From positions 1 to 38,255 of the IMG/VR virus record IMGVR_UViG_3300017781_000042: a stretch of DNA of 38,255 nt. One strand, given 5' to 3'. This document shows positions 28,003 through 36,802 of this stretch, piece after piece (position 1 is the stretch's first letter; every line of letters starts with the position of its first letter). The translations under genes and the position numbers were made by a program. The notes under the pieces were generated by a model. It was not told the DNA's origin, made no database searches, and was given only the letters and a program-made list of their open reading frames with translations. The DNA is from a virus.

Positions 28003-28179
28003 ATGCCTAAATATAACGTAGGACGTATTCAACATTTTAAGGAATACATAATAGTCGAGGCTTCTTCAGAGGAGGAAGCTTTCGACAAGCTTAGAGACGA
28101 GATAGATAGTGGTGAGCGATTGAACCATGTTTATTTCGAGGGCGATGGTGAGTTGGTTTGTGTGGAGGAGACAGATTGA
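28003..28179 (+). CDS. Small accessory protein (58 aa)
   Basis: A very strong AAGGAGGTG ribosome site supports the ATG at 28003. The 58-aa protein (MPKYNVGRIQHFKEYIIVEA) has helix and beta segments and an acidic tail (GDGELVCVEETD). Its stop overlaps the methyltransferase ATG by one base. Function is unknown. Confidence 0.6.
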   Translation: MPKYNVGRIQHFKEYIIVEASSEEEAFDKLRDEIDSGERLNHVYFEGDGELVCVEETD

Positions 28180-29150
28180 TGAGGCACGTTGATTTATGTT
28201 CGGGCATTGGAGGTTTCGCACTTGGTTTCGAGTGGGCGGAATTATCCAAGCCTGTTTTGTTCTGCGACATAGAACCTTGGAGTCGCAAGATTATTAATAA
28301 ACATTGGCCTGATGTGCCGATAGCAGAAGATGTAAAGGAATTAGCAAATGACCCAGAAAGAACTGTTCCCGACTGTGACATCCTCACAGCCGGATATCCG
28401 TGCCAACCTTTTTCGCAAGCCGGAAGACGCAAGGGCGAAGAAGACCCTCGCCACATCTTCCCGTACATTATGCAAATTGTTGCATCCAAAAGACCCTCTT
28501 GGTGCGTTTTCGAAAACGTTTATGGTCACGTCAGCATGGGATTGGACACTGCGCTCACTGCAATGGAAGCAGAAGGTTACGCCACGAGGCCGTTTATTAT
28601 TCCAGCTATATCCGTCGGCGCACCTCACCGAAGAGACAGAATCTTCATCGTCGGACGACTTGCGGACGACACTGGAAGAGCAGGTTTGTCCAGAAGCGAA
28701 CAAGCTGTGGGCGACTCCGGCGGCGGCGGACGCGGTGGGTTCAACGGGGGGAGGACAGGGCAAGAGTCTACGGACGGATGTTCGGATGTGGCCTACCCCA
28801 ACGACGAGGGATTACAAGGGAGCGTCAGGCAAGGGCAGACAGGAACGCAAGGGCAATCCGGCGGACACGTTACCCAACGCAGTAGCGATGTGGCCTACGC
28901 CGACAGCGAACGAGGATGCGGCGGGGACACCCAACGGCAAGATGCAGAAGATGCTGGGCAACCACCCAGAGATTCGTGGAACGTCACCGGAGGAGTGGAA
29001 ACGTGGGGCGTTGAACCCGACGTGGGTAGAGTGGCTAATGGGATACCCAAAAGGGTGGACAGAATTAGAGGACTAGGCAACGCGATTGTCCCCCAGATAG
29101 CAAAACAAATTGGATTAGCAATAAAGGAGACAGAGAATGTTAGATATTAA
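28179..29150 (+). CDS. Phage DNA cytosine-5 methyltransferase
   Basis: This is a 323-aa protein from the ATG at 28179. Motif I (DLCSGIGGFALG, 5-16), motif IV (GYPCQPFS with catalytic Cys75), motif VI (ENV, 112-114), motif VIII (RRDRIFIVG, from 151) and motif X (GLGNAIVPQIA, from 298) are all present and in order, so it should be active. Residues 161-297 are Gly/Gln/Ser/Asp-rich, with a repeated VAY-D or VANGI pattern, and would hold the short target-recognition domain. A second gene is encoded in the same bases (28348-29076). Methylation probably protects phage DNA from host restriction; the recognition site is not known. Confidence 0.9.
   Translation: MRHVDLCSGIGGFALGFEWAELSKPVLFCDIEPWSRKIINKHWPDVPIAEDVKELANDPERTVPDCDILTAGYPCQPFSQAGRRKGEEDPRHIFPYIMQIVASKRPSWCVFENVYGHVSMGLDTALTAMEAEGYATRPFIIPAISVGAPHRRDRIFIVGRLADDTGRAGLSRSEQAVGDSGGGGRGGFNGGRTGQESTDGCSDVAYPNDEGLQGSVRQGQTGTQGQSGGHVTQRSSDVAYADSERGCGGDTQRQDAEDAGQPPRDSWNVTGGVETWGVEPDVGRVANGIPKRVDRIRGLGNAIVPQIAKQIGLAIKETENVRY
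28348..29076 (+). CDS. Nested out-of-frame conserved protein inside the methyltransferase gene
   Basis: A 242-aa frame lies one base out of phase wholly inside the methyltransferase gene. It has its own AAGGA ribosome site (28335-28339) eight bases before the ATG. Motifs match a phage family I recognise: LWATPAAADA (120-129), MWPTPTTRDYKG (147-158), MWPTPTANEDAAG (181-193), LNPTWVEWLMGYPKGW then TELED at the end (222-242). The WPTPT motifs use the same bases as VAYPND / VAYADS in the methyltransferase, and the GYPKGWTELED end shares bases with GIPKRVDRIRGLGN, part of motif X. Function is unknown; a partner or specificity role for the methyltransferase is a guess. Confidence 0.75.
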   Translation: MTQKELFPTVTSSQPDIRANLFRKPEDARAKKTLATSSRTLCKLLHPKDPLGAFSKTFMVTSAWDWTLRSLQWKQKVTPRGRLLFQLYPSAHLTEETESSSSDDLRTTLEEQVCPEANKLWATPAAADAVGSTGGGQGKSLRTDVRMWPTPTTRDYKGASGKGRQERKGNPADTLPNAVAMWPTPTANEDAAGTPNGKMQKMLGNHPEIRGTSPEEWKRGALNPTWVEWLMGYPKGWTELED

Positions 29151-30758: not shown

Positions 30759-32198
30759 CTATACCCTCAACCATTCCCGCATTTGTTCGCCTAGCGAACG
30801 ACCCGCAAGATTAATTTTATTTCGTAATGCTTTGACGATGTGCTCGTCAACGCTATCTGGAACCACCAAATCAATATATGTGACAGGATTTTTCTGCCCG
30901 ATCCGGTGGCATCTGTCCTCTGATTGGACACGATGTTCAAGATTAAAGTTATTCGAATAGTAGATGACGTTACTAGCTTCGGTAAGTGTAAGGCCGAACC
31001 CAGCGGTCTGTGCATTGCCTACAAAGAAACGTAGTTCAGATTCTGGGTTTTGAAAGTCTTCGACGATACGTTCACGTTCTTCGTCGGATGTGCCGCCATA
31101 GTATGAACCCGTGCTACTGTTGCCGTATTCTTTTTTCAATGTAGCTTCGATGCGCCTGATGTCCTCAACAAAACGTGCCCAGATGATTACCTTGCCGTCG
31201 ATCTCCTCGATAGCTTCCATCATTGCATCAATACGATTATTTGCGATGTCGGTCAGAACATCATTGACAGGAAGATAGCCGCATAGAACTTGTTGTAGTC
31301 GCAGAAGTTGTGACATAGCTTCGGTTGCGGATACAACCTCATCGTCAACAATCGTCATGGCAATCTCTTTGAATGACGTGTAGTGCTTTCGCTGTTCGTC
31401 TGTCATGGACACATAGCGCACAGTGTATGTTTTTTCTGGCAAGTCCAGACAGTCTTTCTTGAGCACTCGTGTAGAAAATTCTTTGAGTTTCTGCGCCAGT
31501 TCTTCGATATGCCTGTATCCTACAATCATATCAAACGAATGATTACCCATCTTCTGCCGCCGAGTTATGGCGTACCGAGCTTGGAAACTCCAGTAGTTAT
31601 CGTGACCCAAGAGCCCAGGATCGAGGAACGCACATTGTGAATACAGATCCATAGGTGATTGCGTCACCGGGGAGCCTGTCAAGATTCGACGATAAGAGAA
31701 GTCTTGACCAAGTGATATGATTGATTTGGTGCGTTTAGCTTTGTGGTTCTTGATGGCTGTAGATTCGTCTACGGCAATCATGTTTACTTCAGGATAGTTA
31801 CGAAACTTTTTGTAATAATCGTTGAATTTCTTTGTGATGACAGCTTCGGTGTTTACAATCAGTATCCGCAGTCCATCCTCATACTCACATGCTTCTTTGA
31901 GTTCTTCGACTTCGTGCTTGCGAGGTGAAGACCGCCAAGTAAATACTTTGTGAGGTATTCTGTCGGGCATGTGTATGGGTATTTCTTTGAGCACCCAATT
32001 ACGATATACACCTTTGGGTGCAATGACGACAAGAGTCTTGAGGTTGTGGTTCTCGTAAAGCCATGCGGCATTGTCGATAAGAACCTTCGACTTACCGCAC
32101 CCCATCTCCATAAAATACGCCCACTCGCTAACGTTGCGAGAGTCCTCGAACGCTTGGCGTTGATGTTCGTATGGTTCTGTCTTGTAAATATATGTCAT
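30759..32198 (-). CDS. SNF2-type helicase / translocase
   Basis: This 479-aa protein has SF2 motifs in order: MGCGKSKVL (I, 32-40), DEST (II, 144-147), LTGSPV (III, 173-178), a conserved KVIIWARFVEDIRRIE segment, GNAQTAGFGLTLTEASNVIY (V), and QSEDRCHRIGQ (VI, from residue 425). The HRIGQ variant is typical of SNF2/HARP-like proteins in phages. It probably unwinds or remodels branched DNA during replication or recombination. It stands alone on the minus strand in the early region, opposite the replication genes, and shares overlapping promoters with them (32217-32255). Confidence 0.88.
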   Translation of the reverse strand: MTYIYKTEPYEHQRQAFEDSRNVSEWAYFMEMGCGKSKVLIDNAAWLYENHNLKTLVVIAPKGVYRNWVLKEIPIHMPDRIPHKVFTWRSSPRKHEVEELKEACEYEDGLRILIVNTEAVITKKFNDYYKKFRNYPEVNMIAVDESTAIKNHKAKRTKSIISLGQDFSYRRILTGSPVTQSPMDLYSQCAFLDPGLLGHDNYWSFQARYAITRRQKMGNHSFDMIVGYRHIEELAQKLKEFSTRVLKKDCLDLPEKTYTVRYVSMTDEQRKHYTSFKEIAMTIVDDEVVSATEAMSQLLRLQQVLCGYLPVNDVLTDIANNRIDAMMEAIEEIDGKVIIWARFVEDIRRIEATLKKEYGNSSTGSYYGGTSDEERERIVEDFQNPESELRFFVGNAQTAGFGLTLTEASNVIYYSNNFNLEHRVQSEDRCHRIGQKNPVTYIDLVVPDSVDEHIVKALRNKINLAGRSLGEQMREWLRV

Positions 32199-32216
32199 AG
32201 TACCGTAAAATAATGC

Positions 32217-32244
32217 TTGTAACGCTAATATAGATATGTATTAT
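32217..32244 (+). promoter_or_regulatory. Plus-strand promoter for the replication genes
   Basis: TTGTAA (32217-32222) and TATTAT (32239-32244) are 16 bases apart, each four or five of six to consensus. It would drive the replication block from 32296. It overlaps the opposite promoter at 32227. Confidence 0.6.
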
Positions 32245-32255
32245 GTGAATTGCAA
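32227..32255 (-). promoter_or_regulatory. Minus-strand promoter for the SNF2 helicase
   Basis: On the minus strand TTGCAA (complement of 32250-32255) and TATATT (complement of 32227-32232) are 17 bases apart. The transcript would enter the helicase ATG at 32198. The two opposed promoters overlap by 18 bases, so RNA polymerase can probably use only one at a time. Confidence 0.6.
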
Positions 32256-32295
32256 GTGGGCACACTATAAATGCGTAACAGAGAAAGGTGACACA

Positions 32296-32859
32296 ATGTC
32301 CGATTTATTTGAAAAGATGGAAGCAGATGCAAAAGCTTTTTCCGAAGTGTCAGAAGACCAAGGGAGTGCTTTAGCTAACCTAGTTAAAGCAGCACAAGAT
32401 GCGGATGCGAATATCAAATACTACAAAGAGCAACAAAACATTGCTCAAAAAGATTATGACCAGATCATAAGAGAACTTATCCCGGCAGCTATGGATTCAA
32501 TGGGATTGGAGAGTGTTAGTGTTGAAGGCAACTCTATAACTCTGCAACCCTTTGTCTATGCTCGTATCACAGAAGATAATAAAGACGCATGTTTCGCGTA
32601 TCTTCGTGGACGGGGTTTGGACGACATTATCAAGAACGAAGTCAAAGTCACATTCGGTAAGGGTGAAGACAACGAGGCTGGTGCGTTTCTTGATGATGCA
32701 GTCAACAAAGGTCTTTCAGTTGACAACAAGAAGACCATTCACCCCAGTACATTGAAGGCGGTGGTAAAAGATGAAATGTCTCAAGGTAGAATGTCTGAAA
32801 AAGACCTTGAGGCTTTCAGTGTGTTTAGTGGAATAGAAGCAAAGATTAGGAGAAAGTAA
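32296..32859 (+). CDS. Conserved phage protein beside the putative ssDNA-binding gene (187 aa)
   Basis: The start at 32296 (AAAGGTG before the ATG) gives MSDLFEKMEADAKAFSEVSE, a coil (KYYKEQQNIAQKDYDQIIRE), then LIPAAMDSMGLESVSVEGNS, KDACFAYLRGRGLDDIIKNE, KVTFGKGEDNEA and a charged C-terminal helix. It is a family recognisable in podophage replication regions, upstream of ssDNA-binding-type genes. Its role is not established; an accessory DNA-binding function is likely. Confidence 0.62.
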   Translation: MSDLFEKMEADAKAFSEVSEDQGSALANLVKAAQDADANIKYYKEQQNIAQKDYDQIIRELIPAAMDSMGLESVSVEGNSITLQPFVYARITEDNKDACFAYLRGRGLDDIIKNEVKVTFGKGEDNEAGAFLDDAVNKGLSVDNKKTIHPSTLKAVVKDEMSQGRMSEKDLEAFSVFSGIEAKIRRK

Positions 32860-33713
32860 TGTCGAAAGCTACAGAAACTACAGAACAGAAACCAACGAAA
32901 GTTGTAAAGAAAGAAACGAGTCAGTTGATTGTACCGGAAAGTTTAGCAAACAGATTTGCTGAAGACGCTGGTGCAGGACAGGCGGGTGTAAGCATGGAGC
33001 ATCTTGCTTTACCTTTTATCCGCATGATTCAAAACGGCTCACCTGAACGCAAGAAAACAAACGCAAAGTTTATCGAGGGTTCAGAAGAAGGTGACATCTT
33101 TAATACAGTCACACGCGAACTCTTTAAGCAGGACAAAGGTATCTTTGTAGTGCCTTGTGCGTTTGAGTTTGCACATCTCGAGTTTGTCCCTATGGACGAA
33201 GGCGGCGGCTTTGTTGGTAAGTTAGAGCCAAATGATCCCGCAATTCGCAGTGCTAATCGTGATGAAAATAACAAGGACATTTTGCCAAGTGGCAATGAAC
33301 TTGTTAAAGTTGCACAGCATTACGTCTATGTAGTTGATCAAGACACAGGGGCATATCAGCAAGCTATTCTTGGTATGCAGTCAACAAGTTTGAAGGTGTC
33401 TCGTGGCTGGAATACGCAGATTAAAATGCAAACAGCGATGGTTGACGACAGAAGAATAAAGCTTCCGTCTTTTGGTACGATATGGCATCTTACTACTGTT
33501 GAAAAAACAAGAGACAACTATACTTGGTATGAGTGGTCTGTTCTTGGGAGGACAAGTTATGTTCAAGACGAAGACTTGTATGAGGAAGCAAAATCCTTCA
33601 GTGACCTTATTGAATCGGGAGAGGTTGAAACTGCGGCTGACACAGAACTTCAGAGCGCAGGAAATTCACGAAGTAATACACAGAGTGATGAAGAGCTTTT
33701 CTCAATGGAATAA
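32859..33713 (+). CDS. Possible ssDNA-binding / recombination-associated protein (284 aa)
   Basis: The N-terminus is charged (MSKATETTEQKPTKVVKKET). Then LALPFIRMIQNGSPERKKTN and EGSEEGDIFNTVTRELFKQD resemble a family found beside phage replication genes; QHYVYVVDQDTGAYQQAILG and LKVSRGWNTQIKMQTAMVDD then FGTIWHLTTVEKTRDNYTWY give an OB-like beta-rich region. The C-terminus is acidic (SDEELFSME), as in SSB and T7 gp2.5. The ssDNA-binding assignment is inference from shape and context. Confidence 0.55.
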   Translation: MSKATETTEQKPTKVVKKETSQLIVPESLANRFAEDAGAGQAGVSMEHLALPFIRMIQNGSPERKKTNAKFIEGSEEGDIFNTVTRELFKQDKGIFVVPCAFEFAHLEFVPMDEGGGFVGKLEPNDPAIRSANRDENNKDILPSGNELVKVAQHYVYVVDQDTGAYQQAILGMQSTSLKVSRGWNTQIKMQTAMVDDRRIKLPSFGTIWHLTTVEKTRDNYTWYEWSVLGRTSYVQDEDLYEEAKSFSDLIESGEVETAADTELQSAGNSRSNTQSDEELFSME

Positions 33714-33720
33714 GAATCAA

Positions 33721-33739
33721 GGGGGGCTTCGGGCCCCCC
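33721..33739 (+). promoter_or_regulatory. GC-rich hairpin between ssDNA-binding and primase genes
   Basis: GGGGGGC (33721-33727) and GCCCCCC (33733-33739) pair around TTCGG; no T-run follows, so it is not a clear terminator. It may stabilise or separate the two transcripts, or reduce read-through. Confidence 0.45.
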
Positions 33740-33755
33740 ACAATAAGGTATTGCT

Positions 33756-35285
33756 ATGGACAATGTTCAAAAGTTCATGGCGGCATTTCGTGGATTTGAT
33801 GGCGCACATGGACAGACAATTATTACAGGAGGGCGTGTAAATGGTAAATCAGAAGCCAAAACGCGAATCATCCGAGAGCCGATCACGGCAGAAAAAATCC
33901 AAGAACACTTCGATGGTGGAAAAGGTATTGGTAGTATTCCTATCAATGCTAACAATCAGTGCTCTTTCGGTTGTATTGATATTGACACCTATCCTTTGGA
34001 TCATGCTGATCTTGTTGGCAAGTGTAGGCAACTGGATATTCCAGGTATTGTCTGTAGATCCAAAAGTGGTGGGGCGCACATTTACTTCTTTATCGATGGT
34101 GAAATTTCTGCGGCAGATATGCGGGACAAGCTATCAGAAATTGCGGCAGTTCTGGGGCAAGGTAACTCAGAAATATTTCCCAAGCAGGAAAAACTCCTTG
34201 TCGAAAGAGGCGATGTCGGAAACGCTATCAACCTTCCCTATCATGATGTCGAACGCACTCTCCGTCCCGCGTTCACAAACAAGGGAAAGGAGGCGACTTT
34301 ACAGCAGTTTCTGGCAATGGTGGAGAAGTCGCGTAAAACACCTAGCGAATTTATGTCTATCCAAGTTTCAGGCGGCAGTGAAATACTTGTCGAAGCTCCG
34401 CCGTGCTTAGAGTGTCATGTCCGCAATGGAGTTGGGCAGGGTGGTAGAAACTGTGTGGCGTTTAATCTTGCCACATATTTTAAGAAGCAGAACCCGAAGC
34501 AGTGGAAGCAGGACGTTGAAGCCGCCAACCATTCGTATTTTCAACCACCACTTCCTGCATCTGAGCTTGTCACCATCCAGGATCAGATAGAAAAGAAAGA
34601 TTATTTCTATCAGTGTAATGAGCCACAACTTGCCATGCACTGCAATAAAAGCCTGTGTCGTCAACGCAAATACGGCATCGGCAACAGTGCTCGAAATGTT
34701 GAGATTACCGGACTAACAGTTGTAAAGTCGGAGCCTCGTATATGGTTTGTCGATGTGGCGGGCGCACGTCTTGAACTCACAACAGAGCAACTACAGATGC
34801 CCACGCAGTTTCAACGTGCTTGCATGGAGCAGCTGAACTTTATGCCTCCTAAACTTAAAGAAGACACATGGCAAACAGTTGTGAACGTAGCACTTACTGA
34901 AGTCGTCGAGATTGAAGTTCCGGTTGAACTGACAAACAAAGGGCAGTTTATGGAGTTACTCGAGAACTTCTGTGCAGGACGGGTACAAGCGCAGTCATGG
35001 GAGGAGTTAGACCTTAATAAGCCATACACAGAGGAAGGACACACTTATTTTAAAATGGCGGCACTGATGAATTTTCTCAAAGCACAGAACTTCCTTACCT
35101 ACACCAAGGGGCAAGTGCAGGAACGTATCAAAGAATTGAACGATGGTGAGACATCACATCAACTCAAACAGTACAAAAACTCTAAAGCAGAATGGAAATC
35201 TGTCCGAGTTTGGTCTGTTCCCGAGTTCAAAGAACCCATTGATATTCCTGGCATCAATGTCGGTGGAGAGGAGATTCCGTTTTGA
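33756..35285 (+). CDS. TOTE-type archaeo-eukaryotic primase (509 aa)
   Basis: The AEP catalytic motifs are visible: CIDIDTYP with Asp75 and Asp77, SKSGGAH (102-108), and EIFPKQ with NAINLPYH (139-163), the arrangement of TOTE-conflict and phage primases. Downstream lies a cysteine array, Cys217-x2-Cys220, Cys233, Cys287, Cys296 and Cys301 (CLEC, NCVAF, YQCNEP, HCNKSLC), which could hold zinc or an Fe-S cluster. The C-terminal 200 residues are less clear. It should make primers for the adjacent DNA polymerase. An AAGG site precedes the ATG. The stop overlaps the helicase TTG start. Confidence 0.8.
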   Translation: MDNVQKFMAAFRGFDGAHGQTIITGGRVNGKSEAKTRIIREPITAEKIQEHFDGGKGIGSIPINANNQCSFGCIDIDTYPLDHADLVGKCRQLDIPGIVCRSKSGGAHIYFFIDGEISAADMRDKLSEIAAVLGQGNSEIFPKQEKLLVERGDVGNAINLPYHDVERTLRPAFTNKGKEATLQQFLAMVEKSRKTPSEFMSIQVSGGSEILVEAPPCLECHVRNGVGQGGRNCVAFNLATYFKKQNPKQWKQDVEAANHSYFQPPLPASELVTIQDQIEKKDYFYQCNEPQLAMHCNKSLCRQRKYGIGNSARNVEITGLTVVKSEPRIWFVDVAGARLELTTEQLQMPTQFQRACMEQLNFMPPKLKEDTWQTVVNVALTEVVEIEVPVELTNKGQFMELLENFCAGRVQAQSWEELDLNKPYTEEGHTYFKMAALMNFLKAQNFLTYTKGQVQERIKELNDGETSHQLKQYKNSKAEWKSVRVWSVPEFKEPIDIPGINVGGEEIPF

Positions 35286-36802
35286 CAAGCAATCGTGCAC
35301 CAACCGCCATAGTCGGACCGCCGGGAACAGGCAAAACACATACCTTAATCGAGATTGTACGTCAACATTTGCGTAATGGCGCACCACCGGAATCAGTGGG
35401 TTTCTTTTCGTTTAGCCGTAAGGCGGCAGAAGAAGCAAGGGACAGGGCTATCTCTGAATTAAGTCTCGACCCGAAGCGTCTGCTACATTTCAGAACACTA
35501 CATTCTCTAGCGTTTCGCCAACTCGGATTGAAGCGAAGTGATGTTATTGGATCGGCGGATTACACACAACTTGAGAAGTTGTTGGGCATTGAGTTCCAAA
35601 GTTCACGGAGCATGAGTGTAAGTGACGGCGAGTTCTTCCGCTTGGGTCGTGATGGTGATATGTACCTTTCTGTTATCAGCATGTCTCGTACAAGAGGCAT
35701 TGGCTTGCGACAACAGTTTGATGAGTTTAACAATCCCTATCTCGATTTCCGCCAGCTTCAGATAGTCAATCAAGTTTACGATGACTATAAAAAAGAGACA
35801 AAAAAAATTGACTTTGTTGACATGATTGAAAGTTTTATTGACTTGCCTGATTGTCCGAAACTTGACTTGCTTATTGTTGACGAAGCGCAAGACCTTGTTC
35901 CGTTGCAGTGGGACATGGTGGACAAGCTTATTAAAAACGCAAAGCAGACTTACTACGCAGGGGATGACGACCAAGCTATCTACGAGTGGATGGGCGTTGA
36001 TCCAGAAAACTTTATTGCCCGGTGTGATAATAAACGAGTATTGGATCAGAGTTTCCGTGTCCCCCAAGCAGTACACAACTTGTCTCTGGACTTAATTAAA
36101 GGCGTGAGCAGACGTGTCGATAAGAACTGGAAACCAATTAGTCATGAGGGCTCCGTATCATTTCACTATGCACTTGATGAGATAGACTTACGAGAAGGCG
36201 AGTGGTTAATACTTTGCCGTACCAACCATATTCTTAATAAAGTGGCGAAGGATATGAAGGAGTGGGGGTTGCTGTATTGGCGCGAGGGTGCGGGGTATAG
36301 TGCTTCGACCAGAGTGCTTACCGCAGCTCAAACATGGACACGACTATCTCGTGGTGACTCTGTGTCTAAAGAAGAGGCAAAAGGTTTTATGTCTTTTATT
36401 CGTGTAGATAAACCAATTCGCAAGGCTGTAGATCATTGGTTCAAGTATGAGCCGACTGAAACGTTCACTATGGACAACTTCCTCGAACTAACTAGTTTAG
36501 ACTATGGTGGTAAGAAGTGGTTTGAGATTCTTGATATTCCTGACGCAGAGCGAGTGTACATACAGTCTGTGCTACGGGCAGGGGAGAAGTTTGGAAAAGA
36601 GCCAAGGATTAGGCTGTCTACGATACACAAGGCAAAGGGCGGTGAGGCGGACAATGTTGTTTTGTTTTTAGATTCAAGTAAAGCGTGTCAAACACTGGCT
36701 AACGAAGACTGTGAGAAACGTGTTTTTTATGTCGGCATGACAAGAGCCAAACAAAACCTTCATTTAATTGAGGGTTCAAGCAGATGGAGTTTCAGAATAT
36801 GA
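35282..36802 (+). CDS. UvrD/PcrA-like superfamily 1 helicase, TTG start
   Basis: The start codon is TTG, overlapping the primase TGA, with a GAGGAG site eight bases before; no ATG is available there. Motifs follow in order: GPPGTGKT (12-19), GFFSFSRKAAEEARDRA, DEAQD (200-204), GDDDQAIYEW (227-236), FRVPQAVHNLSLDLI, LSTIHKAKGGEADNVVLF, and YVGMTRAKQNLHLI (from 484). The 506-aa length is shorter than UvrD but typical of phage SF1 helicases. It probably unwinds DNA ahead of the polymerase. The stop overlaps the polymerase ATG by four bases. Confidence 0.88.
   Translation: MTSNRAPTAIVGPPGTGKTHTLIEIVRQHLRNGAPPESVGFFSFSRKAAEEARDRAISELSLDPKRLLHFRTLHSLAFRQLGLKRSDVIGSADYTQLEKLLGIEFQSSRSMSVSDGEFFRLGRDGDMYLSVISMSRTRGIGLRQQFDEFNNPYLDFRQLQIVNQVYDDYKKETKKIDFVDMIESFIDLPDCPKLDLLIVDEAQDLVPLQWDMVDKLIKNAKQTYYAGDDDQAIYEWMGVDPENFIARCDNKRVLDQSFRVPQAVHNLSLDLIKGVSRRVDKNWKPISHEGSVSFHYALDEIDLREGEWLILCRTNHILNKVAKDMKEWGLLYWREGAGYSASTRVLTAAQTWTRLSRGDSVSKEEAKGFMSFIRVDKPIRKAVDHWFKYEPTETFTMDNFLELTSLDYGGKKWFEILDIPDAERVYIQSVLRAGEKFGKEPRIRLSTIHKAKGGEADNVVLFLDSSKACQTLANEDCEKRVFYVGMTRAKQNLHLIEGSSRWSFRI

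Follow-up and report, generated by a model that had tools for sequence, protein, structure and literature searches.

A phage cytosine methyltransferase gene with a nested second gene that probably encodes its DNA-recognition subunit

The region between motifs VIII and X of a C5-cytosine DNA methyltransferase comprises the target-recognition domain (TRD) and motif IX. A few of these enzymes are naturally split, among them M.EcoHK31I and M.EaeI, which is of the same kind. Lee, Kam and Shaw are reported to have described (1995, Nucleic Acids Res 23:103) that the smaller polypeptide of M.EcoHK31I is translated in a different frame of the gene for the larger one, and that methylation in vitro requires the two together. 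In a published account, the larger of the two M.EcoHK31I polypeptides holds motifs I-VIII and X and the smaller holds motif IX; the same account likewise supports the location of the TRD and motif IX between VIII and X in C5 enzymes, and notes that several monomeric C5 enzymes can be divided between VIII and the TRD into fragments that come back together in the cell (PMC3404938).

We examined a virus record of 38,255 bases (the window, meaning the whole stretch of DNA analysed) in which two genes, here called alpha and beta, share one stretch of DNA in two frames. The kind of system is already known, namely a naturally split, frame-overlapping C5 methyltransferase, and the internal gene is annotated in some GenBank records. 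What is new here is the breadth of the family, the substitution evidence, the placement of the recognition domain in beta, and the fused and un-nested variants. The features are as follows.

28179..29150, + strand: alpha, a C5-cytosine DNA methyltransferase of 323 aa with motifs I-VIII and X (PF00145, phrog_363).
28335..28339, + strand: Shine-Dalgarno sequence of beta, AAGGA, which lies within codons of alpha and ends 8 nt ahead of the beta ATG.
28342..28344, + strand: TAG stop in frame with beta, one codon before its start.
28348..29076, + strand: beta, the nested protein, in frame +1 of alpha, starting at ATG, 242 aa (phrog_1008).
28398..28409, + strand: catalytic motif IV of alpha (PCQP); it falls within the overlap and is invariant in the alpha alignment.
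28665..29003, + strand: alpha inter-motif segment, residues 163-275, nearly unconstrained and predicted to be disordered; the beta reading of the same bases gives the WPTPT repeats.
29011..29061, + strand: beta equivalent of motif IX, LNPTWVEWLMGYPKGWT, with invariant residues; its counterpart in canonical enzymes is LTPRECWRLQGFPDW, an alignment that is weak when taken by itself.
29076..29096, + strand: alpha motif X (GNAIVPQ), starting where beta stops, with invariant G300, N301 and P305.

For alpha, the ATG at 28179, which lies behind a GGAGG, is a better choice of start than the TTG at 28158 given in the open reading frame listing. Alpha matched PF00145 over residues 1-164 (E 9e-39) and phrog_363 (E 7e-69). 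PADLOC returned no more than generic methyltransferase matches for alpha and none for beta. Beta matched phrog_1008, which carries the label 'DNA methyltransferase' (E 8e-32), and no Pfam or NCBIfam family. The first-pass annotation had described a frame of 242 codons with its own AAGGA inside the methyltransferase, overlapping the catalytic region, and this was confirmed at 28348-29076, with motif IV within the overlap. The sequence blocks it had listed are likewise all present: LWATPAAAD, MWPTPTTRD and MWPTPTANED, with the end GYPKGWTELED, in beta, and VAYPND and VAYADS in alpha. The last two are encoded by the same bases as MWPTPT in the beta frame, and these alpha 'repeats' are an out-of-frame echo of the beta repeats.

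Set beside M.EcoHK31I (YGGCCR) by its published description, alpha and beta show the same division of motifs, I-VIII and X in the larger chain and IX in the smaller, although motif IX of beta by itself gives just a weak profile match to the canonical motif. The smaller subunit lies in another frame of the larger gene here as well, and every locus of the family that was examined has this overlap in +1. There are also differences. The TRD of M.EcoHK31I is predicted to lie in its larger subunit (PMC3404938), whereas here we place it in the nested subunit because of the substitution pattern and the in-frame relatives discussed below. M.EcoHK31I is part of a restriction-modification system, whereas none of the genes searched around the phage methyltransferase was recognised as a restriction enzyme. 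M.AquI (CYCGRG) is also one C5 methyltransferase made of a catalytic and a recognition polypeptide (PMC3404938), but it carries motif X in the smaller subunit, while here motif X is in alpha.

A tblastn search with beta returned 61 phage records, mostly from Paenibacillus larvae phages, and 2 plasmids. Whichever gene was the query, the arrangement was the same: in the roughly 250 related loci, which come from bacterial genomes as well as from phages and plasmids, beta lies over alpha in frame +1. The +1 alpha overlap was found in 80 of 80 viral contigs and 80 of 80 bacterial-genome loci in the sets collected with beta, and the +1 beta frame in 80/80 viral loci collected with alpha, where beta was disregarded in the search (some contigs recur between the beta-found and alpha-found sets); annotated phage and plasmid loci had the overlap in 10/10. 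The earlier proposal that beta belongs to a recurring phage protein family is thus borne out, with homologues in phages, plasmids and bacterial genomes, and co-location in the same relative frames holds from both directions. Relatives of beta are 30-68% identical across phyla; no beta was found apart from alpha in any locus examined, and the canonical single-chain methyltransferases used as controls (IPP48, Drs3, VAC13 and E. coli Dcm) had no match to beta. As judged by this conservation, the comparison shows beta to be a real gene of a real family. The annotation of these loci is uneven: in phage Rani the beta homologue, gp51, is annotated 'g50 Internal gene', in phage Bloom both genes are annotated (the beta homologue being gp57), and many records give one gene of the pair and omit the other. 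On enterobacterial plasmids, namely LR134256.1 (H124/H143) and the Citrobacter amalonaticus plasmids NZ_CP083652.1 and NZ_AP024586.1, the alpha and beta copies look broken, being in several pieces or retaining the first half only, and no gene is listed at the Citrobacter amalonaticus matches. A search of the literature available to the analysis found no paper describing this nested family, and the nesting is not discussed in the passages found in a paper on 48 P. larvae phages.

Substitutions were compared in 22 independent sequence pairs of 79-96% identity. Before the overlap, the per-site substitution rates for the three positions of alpha codons (1/2/3) were 0.083/0.038/0.261, and past the end of beta they were 0.038/0.030/0.218; in these alpha-only regions changes favour alpha position 3 (upstream in 22 pairs against 0, downstream in 19 against 1). 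Over the catalytic motifs the rates fall to 0.055/0.024/0.098. Between motifs VIII and X they are 0.192/0.083/0.066, and changes there favour alpha position 1, which is beta position 3, in 21 pairs against 0; over IX/X the rates are 0.100/0.037/0.032 and the preference is 14:0. The window's own pair shows the same flip between VIII and X (17 vs 6). In that segment, changes that are silent in beta and alter alpha occur at 3.11 times the average (95% CI 2.60-3.68), near the 3.73-fold value for synonymous changes in the alpha-only regions, while changes silent in alpha that alter beta occur at 0.64 times the average. These patterns show that both frames are constrained, with the dominant frame switching along the gene. 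The possibility that only the methyltransferase frame is constrained fails between VIII and X, where it is beta that is the protein and alpha a tolerated echo that drifts almost freely.

The two products are complementary when viewed as domains. In alpha, the residues P74-Q76, E112-V114, R152 and R154 (PCQ, ENV, RxR) are invariant, as befits motifs I-VIII, and GNAxVPQ of motif X is invariant or near-invariant and belongs to a C-terminal helix, 292-322. The predicted structure is ordered over 1-161 and 292-322 and disordered over 166-287 (pLDDT < 50), and it matches M.HhaI, the best match, and M.HaeIII with Z of about 20 over about 200 aligned residues whose ends are motif I and motif X, the alignment extending to M.HhaI residue 326. 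The match at both ends and the disordered middle indicate that alpha is the large domain of the enzyme without the small one; as a single chain, with the TRD and motif IX in the same polypeptide, alpha does not qualify, since residues 166-287 are disordered and barely constrained.

Beta consists of an N-terminal domain, residues 1-96, and a C-terminal part, about 97-242, that is homologous to the TRD and motif IX of single-chain methyltransferases. In several mycobacteriophage enzymes, the beta profile from about position 97 to 246 finds an in-frame match, with E values as low as 4e-12, that falls exactly between VIII and X, and beta LNPTWVEWLMGYPKGW sits between VIII and X in single-chain relatives. 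Enzymes of the Estave1 gp75 type resemble beta in their LLPTP repeats and in having FPEWMMGWPAGW between VIII and X, but differ in that the recognition region is in frame with the catalytic domain. Near the C-terminus of beta, L222, P224, W226-E228, M231, G232 and T238 are invariant, and the pattern LNPxWVEWLMGYPxGW resembles the canonical RxLTPRECxRLQGFPDxF in position and pattern, an alignment that is weak alone: when beta was compared by hhalign with 84 canonical methyltransferases, motif IX alone aligned, with a probability under 1%. A PDB profile search with beta gave no match. AlphaFold applied to beta alone (56 sequences, from the window and IMG/VR loci) gave a low-confidence model with a mean pLDDT of 56, for which no solved fold was found with a Z of 5 or more; this is no sign of a new fold.

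Natural variants, found in two MAG loci and in the mycobacteriophages whose recognition domain is fused to alpha, also speak for one enzyme. In a Bacillota MAG (L110, 2268-3568), alpha ends after VIII and the beta frame continues through motif X, so that the motifs are divided as in M.AquI. A Flavobacteriales MAG (L165, 1500-3157) has an additional copy of beta that is located almost entirely past the end of alpha, while its nested copy has two in-frame TGA stops in the C-terminus, possibly a case of un-nesting in progress; sequence errors are possible in both MAG sequences. Among related actinobacteriophages (L341-L372, L255, L259), some have the recognition region in frame, some have it in +1, and in others it is divided between ORFs that are shifted in frame. 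The first-pass annotation had raised the possibility that the two genes are always nested as one dual-coding module. The common +1 overlap across loci agrees with this, but 'always' is too strong, given the fused and partly un-nested relatives.

We consider it very probable that alpha is the catalytic domain (I-VIII and X) and beta the DNA-recognition domain, and that the two work as a heterodimer like M.EcoHK31I; translation of beta, the heterodimer itself, methylation and its target are what we infer from the comparisons above. Both proteins would be made from one message, beta by internal initiation at its own ribosome site. Alpha would bind SAM and flip and methylate the cytosine, its motifs I-VIII being joined to the motif X helix by a long unstructured linker that is simply the beta codons spelled in the other frame. 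Beta would read the sequence through its target-recognition domain (the WPTPT repeats) and motif IX, its N-terminal domain of about 95 residues would probably serve in docking or assembly, and the two chains would assemble into an active, sequence-specific methyltransferase. The arrangement probably goes back to a single-chain gene in which two compensating indels flanked the recognition segment, after which the beta N-terminus would have been overprinted on the catalytic motifs. The functional complex suggested by the first-pass annotation is supported by domain logic, the in-frame fusions and the M.EcoHK31I precedent, which together make it the likely interpretation.

Against this scheme stand the low-confidence model of beta, its lack of a PDB match and the weak motif IX alignment given above, together with features of the beta N-terminal domain. 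Single-chain enzymes lack anything corresponding to this domain, and no relative of it was found in Pfam, among canonical methyltransferases or elsewhere outside the alpha/beta family. Residues 1-96 (28348-28635), read over the alpha catalytic motifs, are conserved and are predicted to form two helices and a hairpin, with pLDDT up to 86. In Estave1 and Neville the N-terminal frame is still open and recognisable in +1 despite the fusion of the recognition domain to alpha, which suggests a role beyond docking. A second function, for example holding alpha inactive until assembly, regulation, or countering host defence, is a tentative idea that we hold to be rather unlikely. The same two observations, a domain without known fold or relative and its persistence in +1 in phages where alpha already includes the recognition domain, also speak for the reading that beta is a separate protein, a regulator or an anti-restriction or anti-defence factor, that overlaps the methyltransferase but is no subunit of it. 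Against this reading, alpha lacks a recognition domain and motif IX, the C-terminus of beta is the recognition region in single-chain relatives, and beta is never away from alpha in the loci examined. We judge a separate protein to be improbable.

The start signals of beta bear on how the second frame is entered. Among the 70 relatives whose 5' end could be compared, 58 begin beta with ATG and 12 with GTG; AAGGA stands ahead of the start codon in 67, and the upstream stop lies 1 codon before it in 60 and 4 codons before it in 9. With the stop one codon before the start, entry to beta from upstream in that frame is impossible. The alpha Lys codon that carries the Shine-Dalgarno sequence is AAG in 66/66 (upstream background 101 AAG:47 AAA; nominal Fisher P 4e-9), and the alpha third base that supplies the U of the beta start codon is T in 66/66 (background 197 T:135 C; nominal Fisher P 8e-14), P values that overstate independence because the sequences are related. 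The Shine-Dalgarno sequence and start codon of beta are conserved beyond the needs of alpha itself. A programmed ribosomal frameshift that carried translation over from alpha to beta could also produce a full-length single-chain enzyme; in-frame single-chain versions exist, and a shift between VIII and the repeats would yield one. Yet the conserved start signals, the stop one codon upstream and the conserved beta N-terminus over the catalytic motifs would be pointless if a shift were the only way into beta, and the shifted protein would be without motif X, as that motif remains with alpha. We find frameshifting very hard to credit.

A homing endonuclease inserted out of frame in a phage methylase, of the ShiLan type, has in its favour that the host gene is of the same type and the ORF is also out of frame (PMC11855218), but beta overlies the invariant alpha motifs IV-VIII and hence is no insertion. 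Compared with ShiLan-type HNH elements, beta had no match to HNH or any other nuclease family, and we give this origin practically no credence. A spurious long frame arising from base composition can be dismissed as well: when synonymous codons of alpha are shuffled, long open stretches in +1 do turn up now and then (243 codons or more in 3/20,000, with a median of 94 and a 99% value of 180 codons), but the 30-68% identity across phyla and the position-3 periodicity in the beta frame already refute it, homology and substitution pattern together making a chance origin untenable.

The role that we infer for the alpha-beta methyltransferase is modification of phage DNA that evades host restriction. 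Since no restriction enzyme was recognised among the phage genes searched, an orphan, protective methyltransferase would be the simplest role. The phage also encodes an SNF2-type helicase, a TOTE-type primase, a UvrD-like helicase, a terminase and a portal protein; at 30759-36802 of the window, the SNF2-type helicase (- strand) lies beside Pam3 gp33/gp34-like genes, and the TOTE-type primase and UvrD-like helicase are on the + strand.

Alpha and beta would thus provide a natural case of one enzyme in two frames, in which constraint swaps frame as the domain logic predicts. The low-complexity 'VADTxSxG' stretches in this phage methyltransferase family would be the shadow of a second subunit that is often unannotated. 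Where beta homologues inside a methyltransferase gene are listed, as for phrog_1008, Rani gp51 and Bloom gp57, the labels 'DNA methyltransferase' or 'hypothetical protein' omit the recognition role. Anyone who predicts methylation specificity, or clones the enzyme, on the strength of just the annotated gene would be left without the half that recognises DNA.
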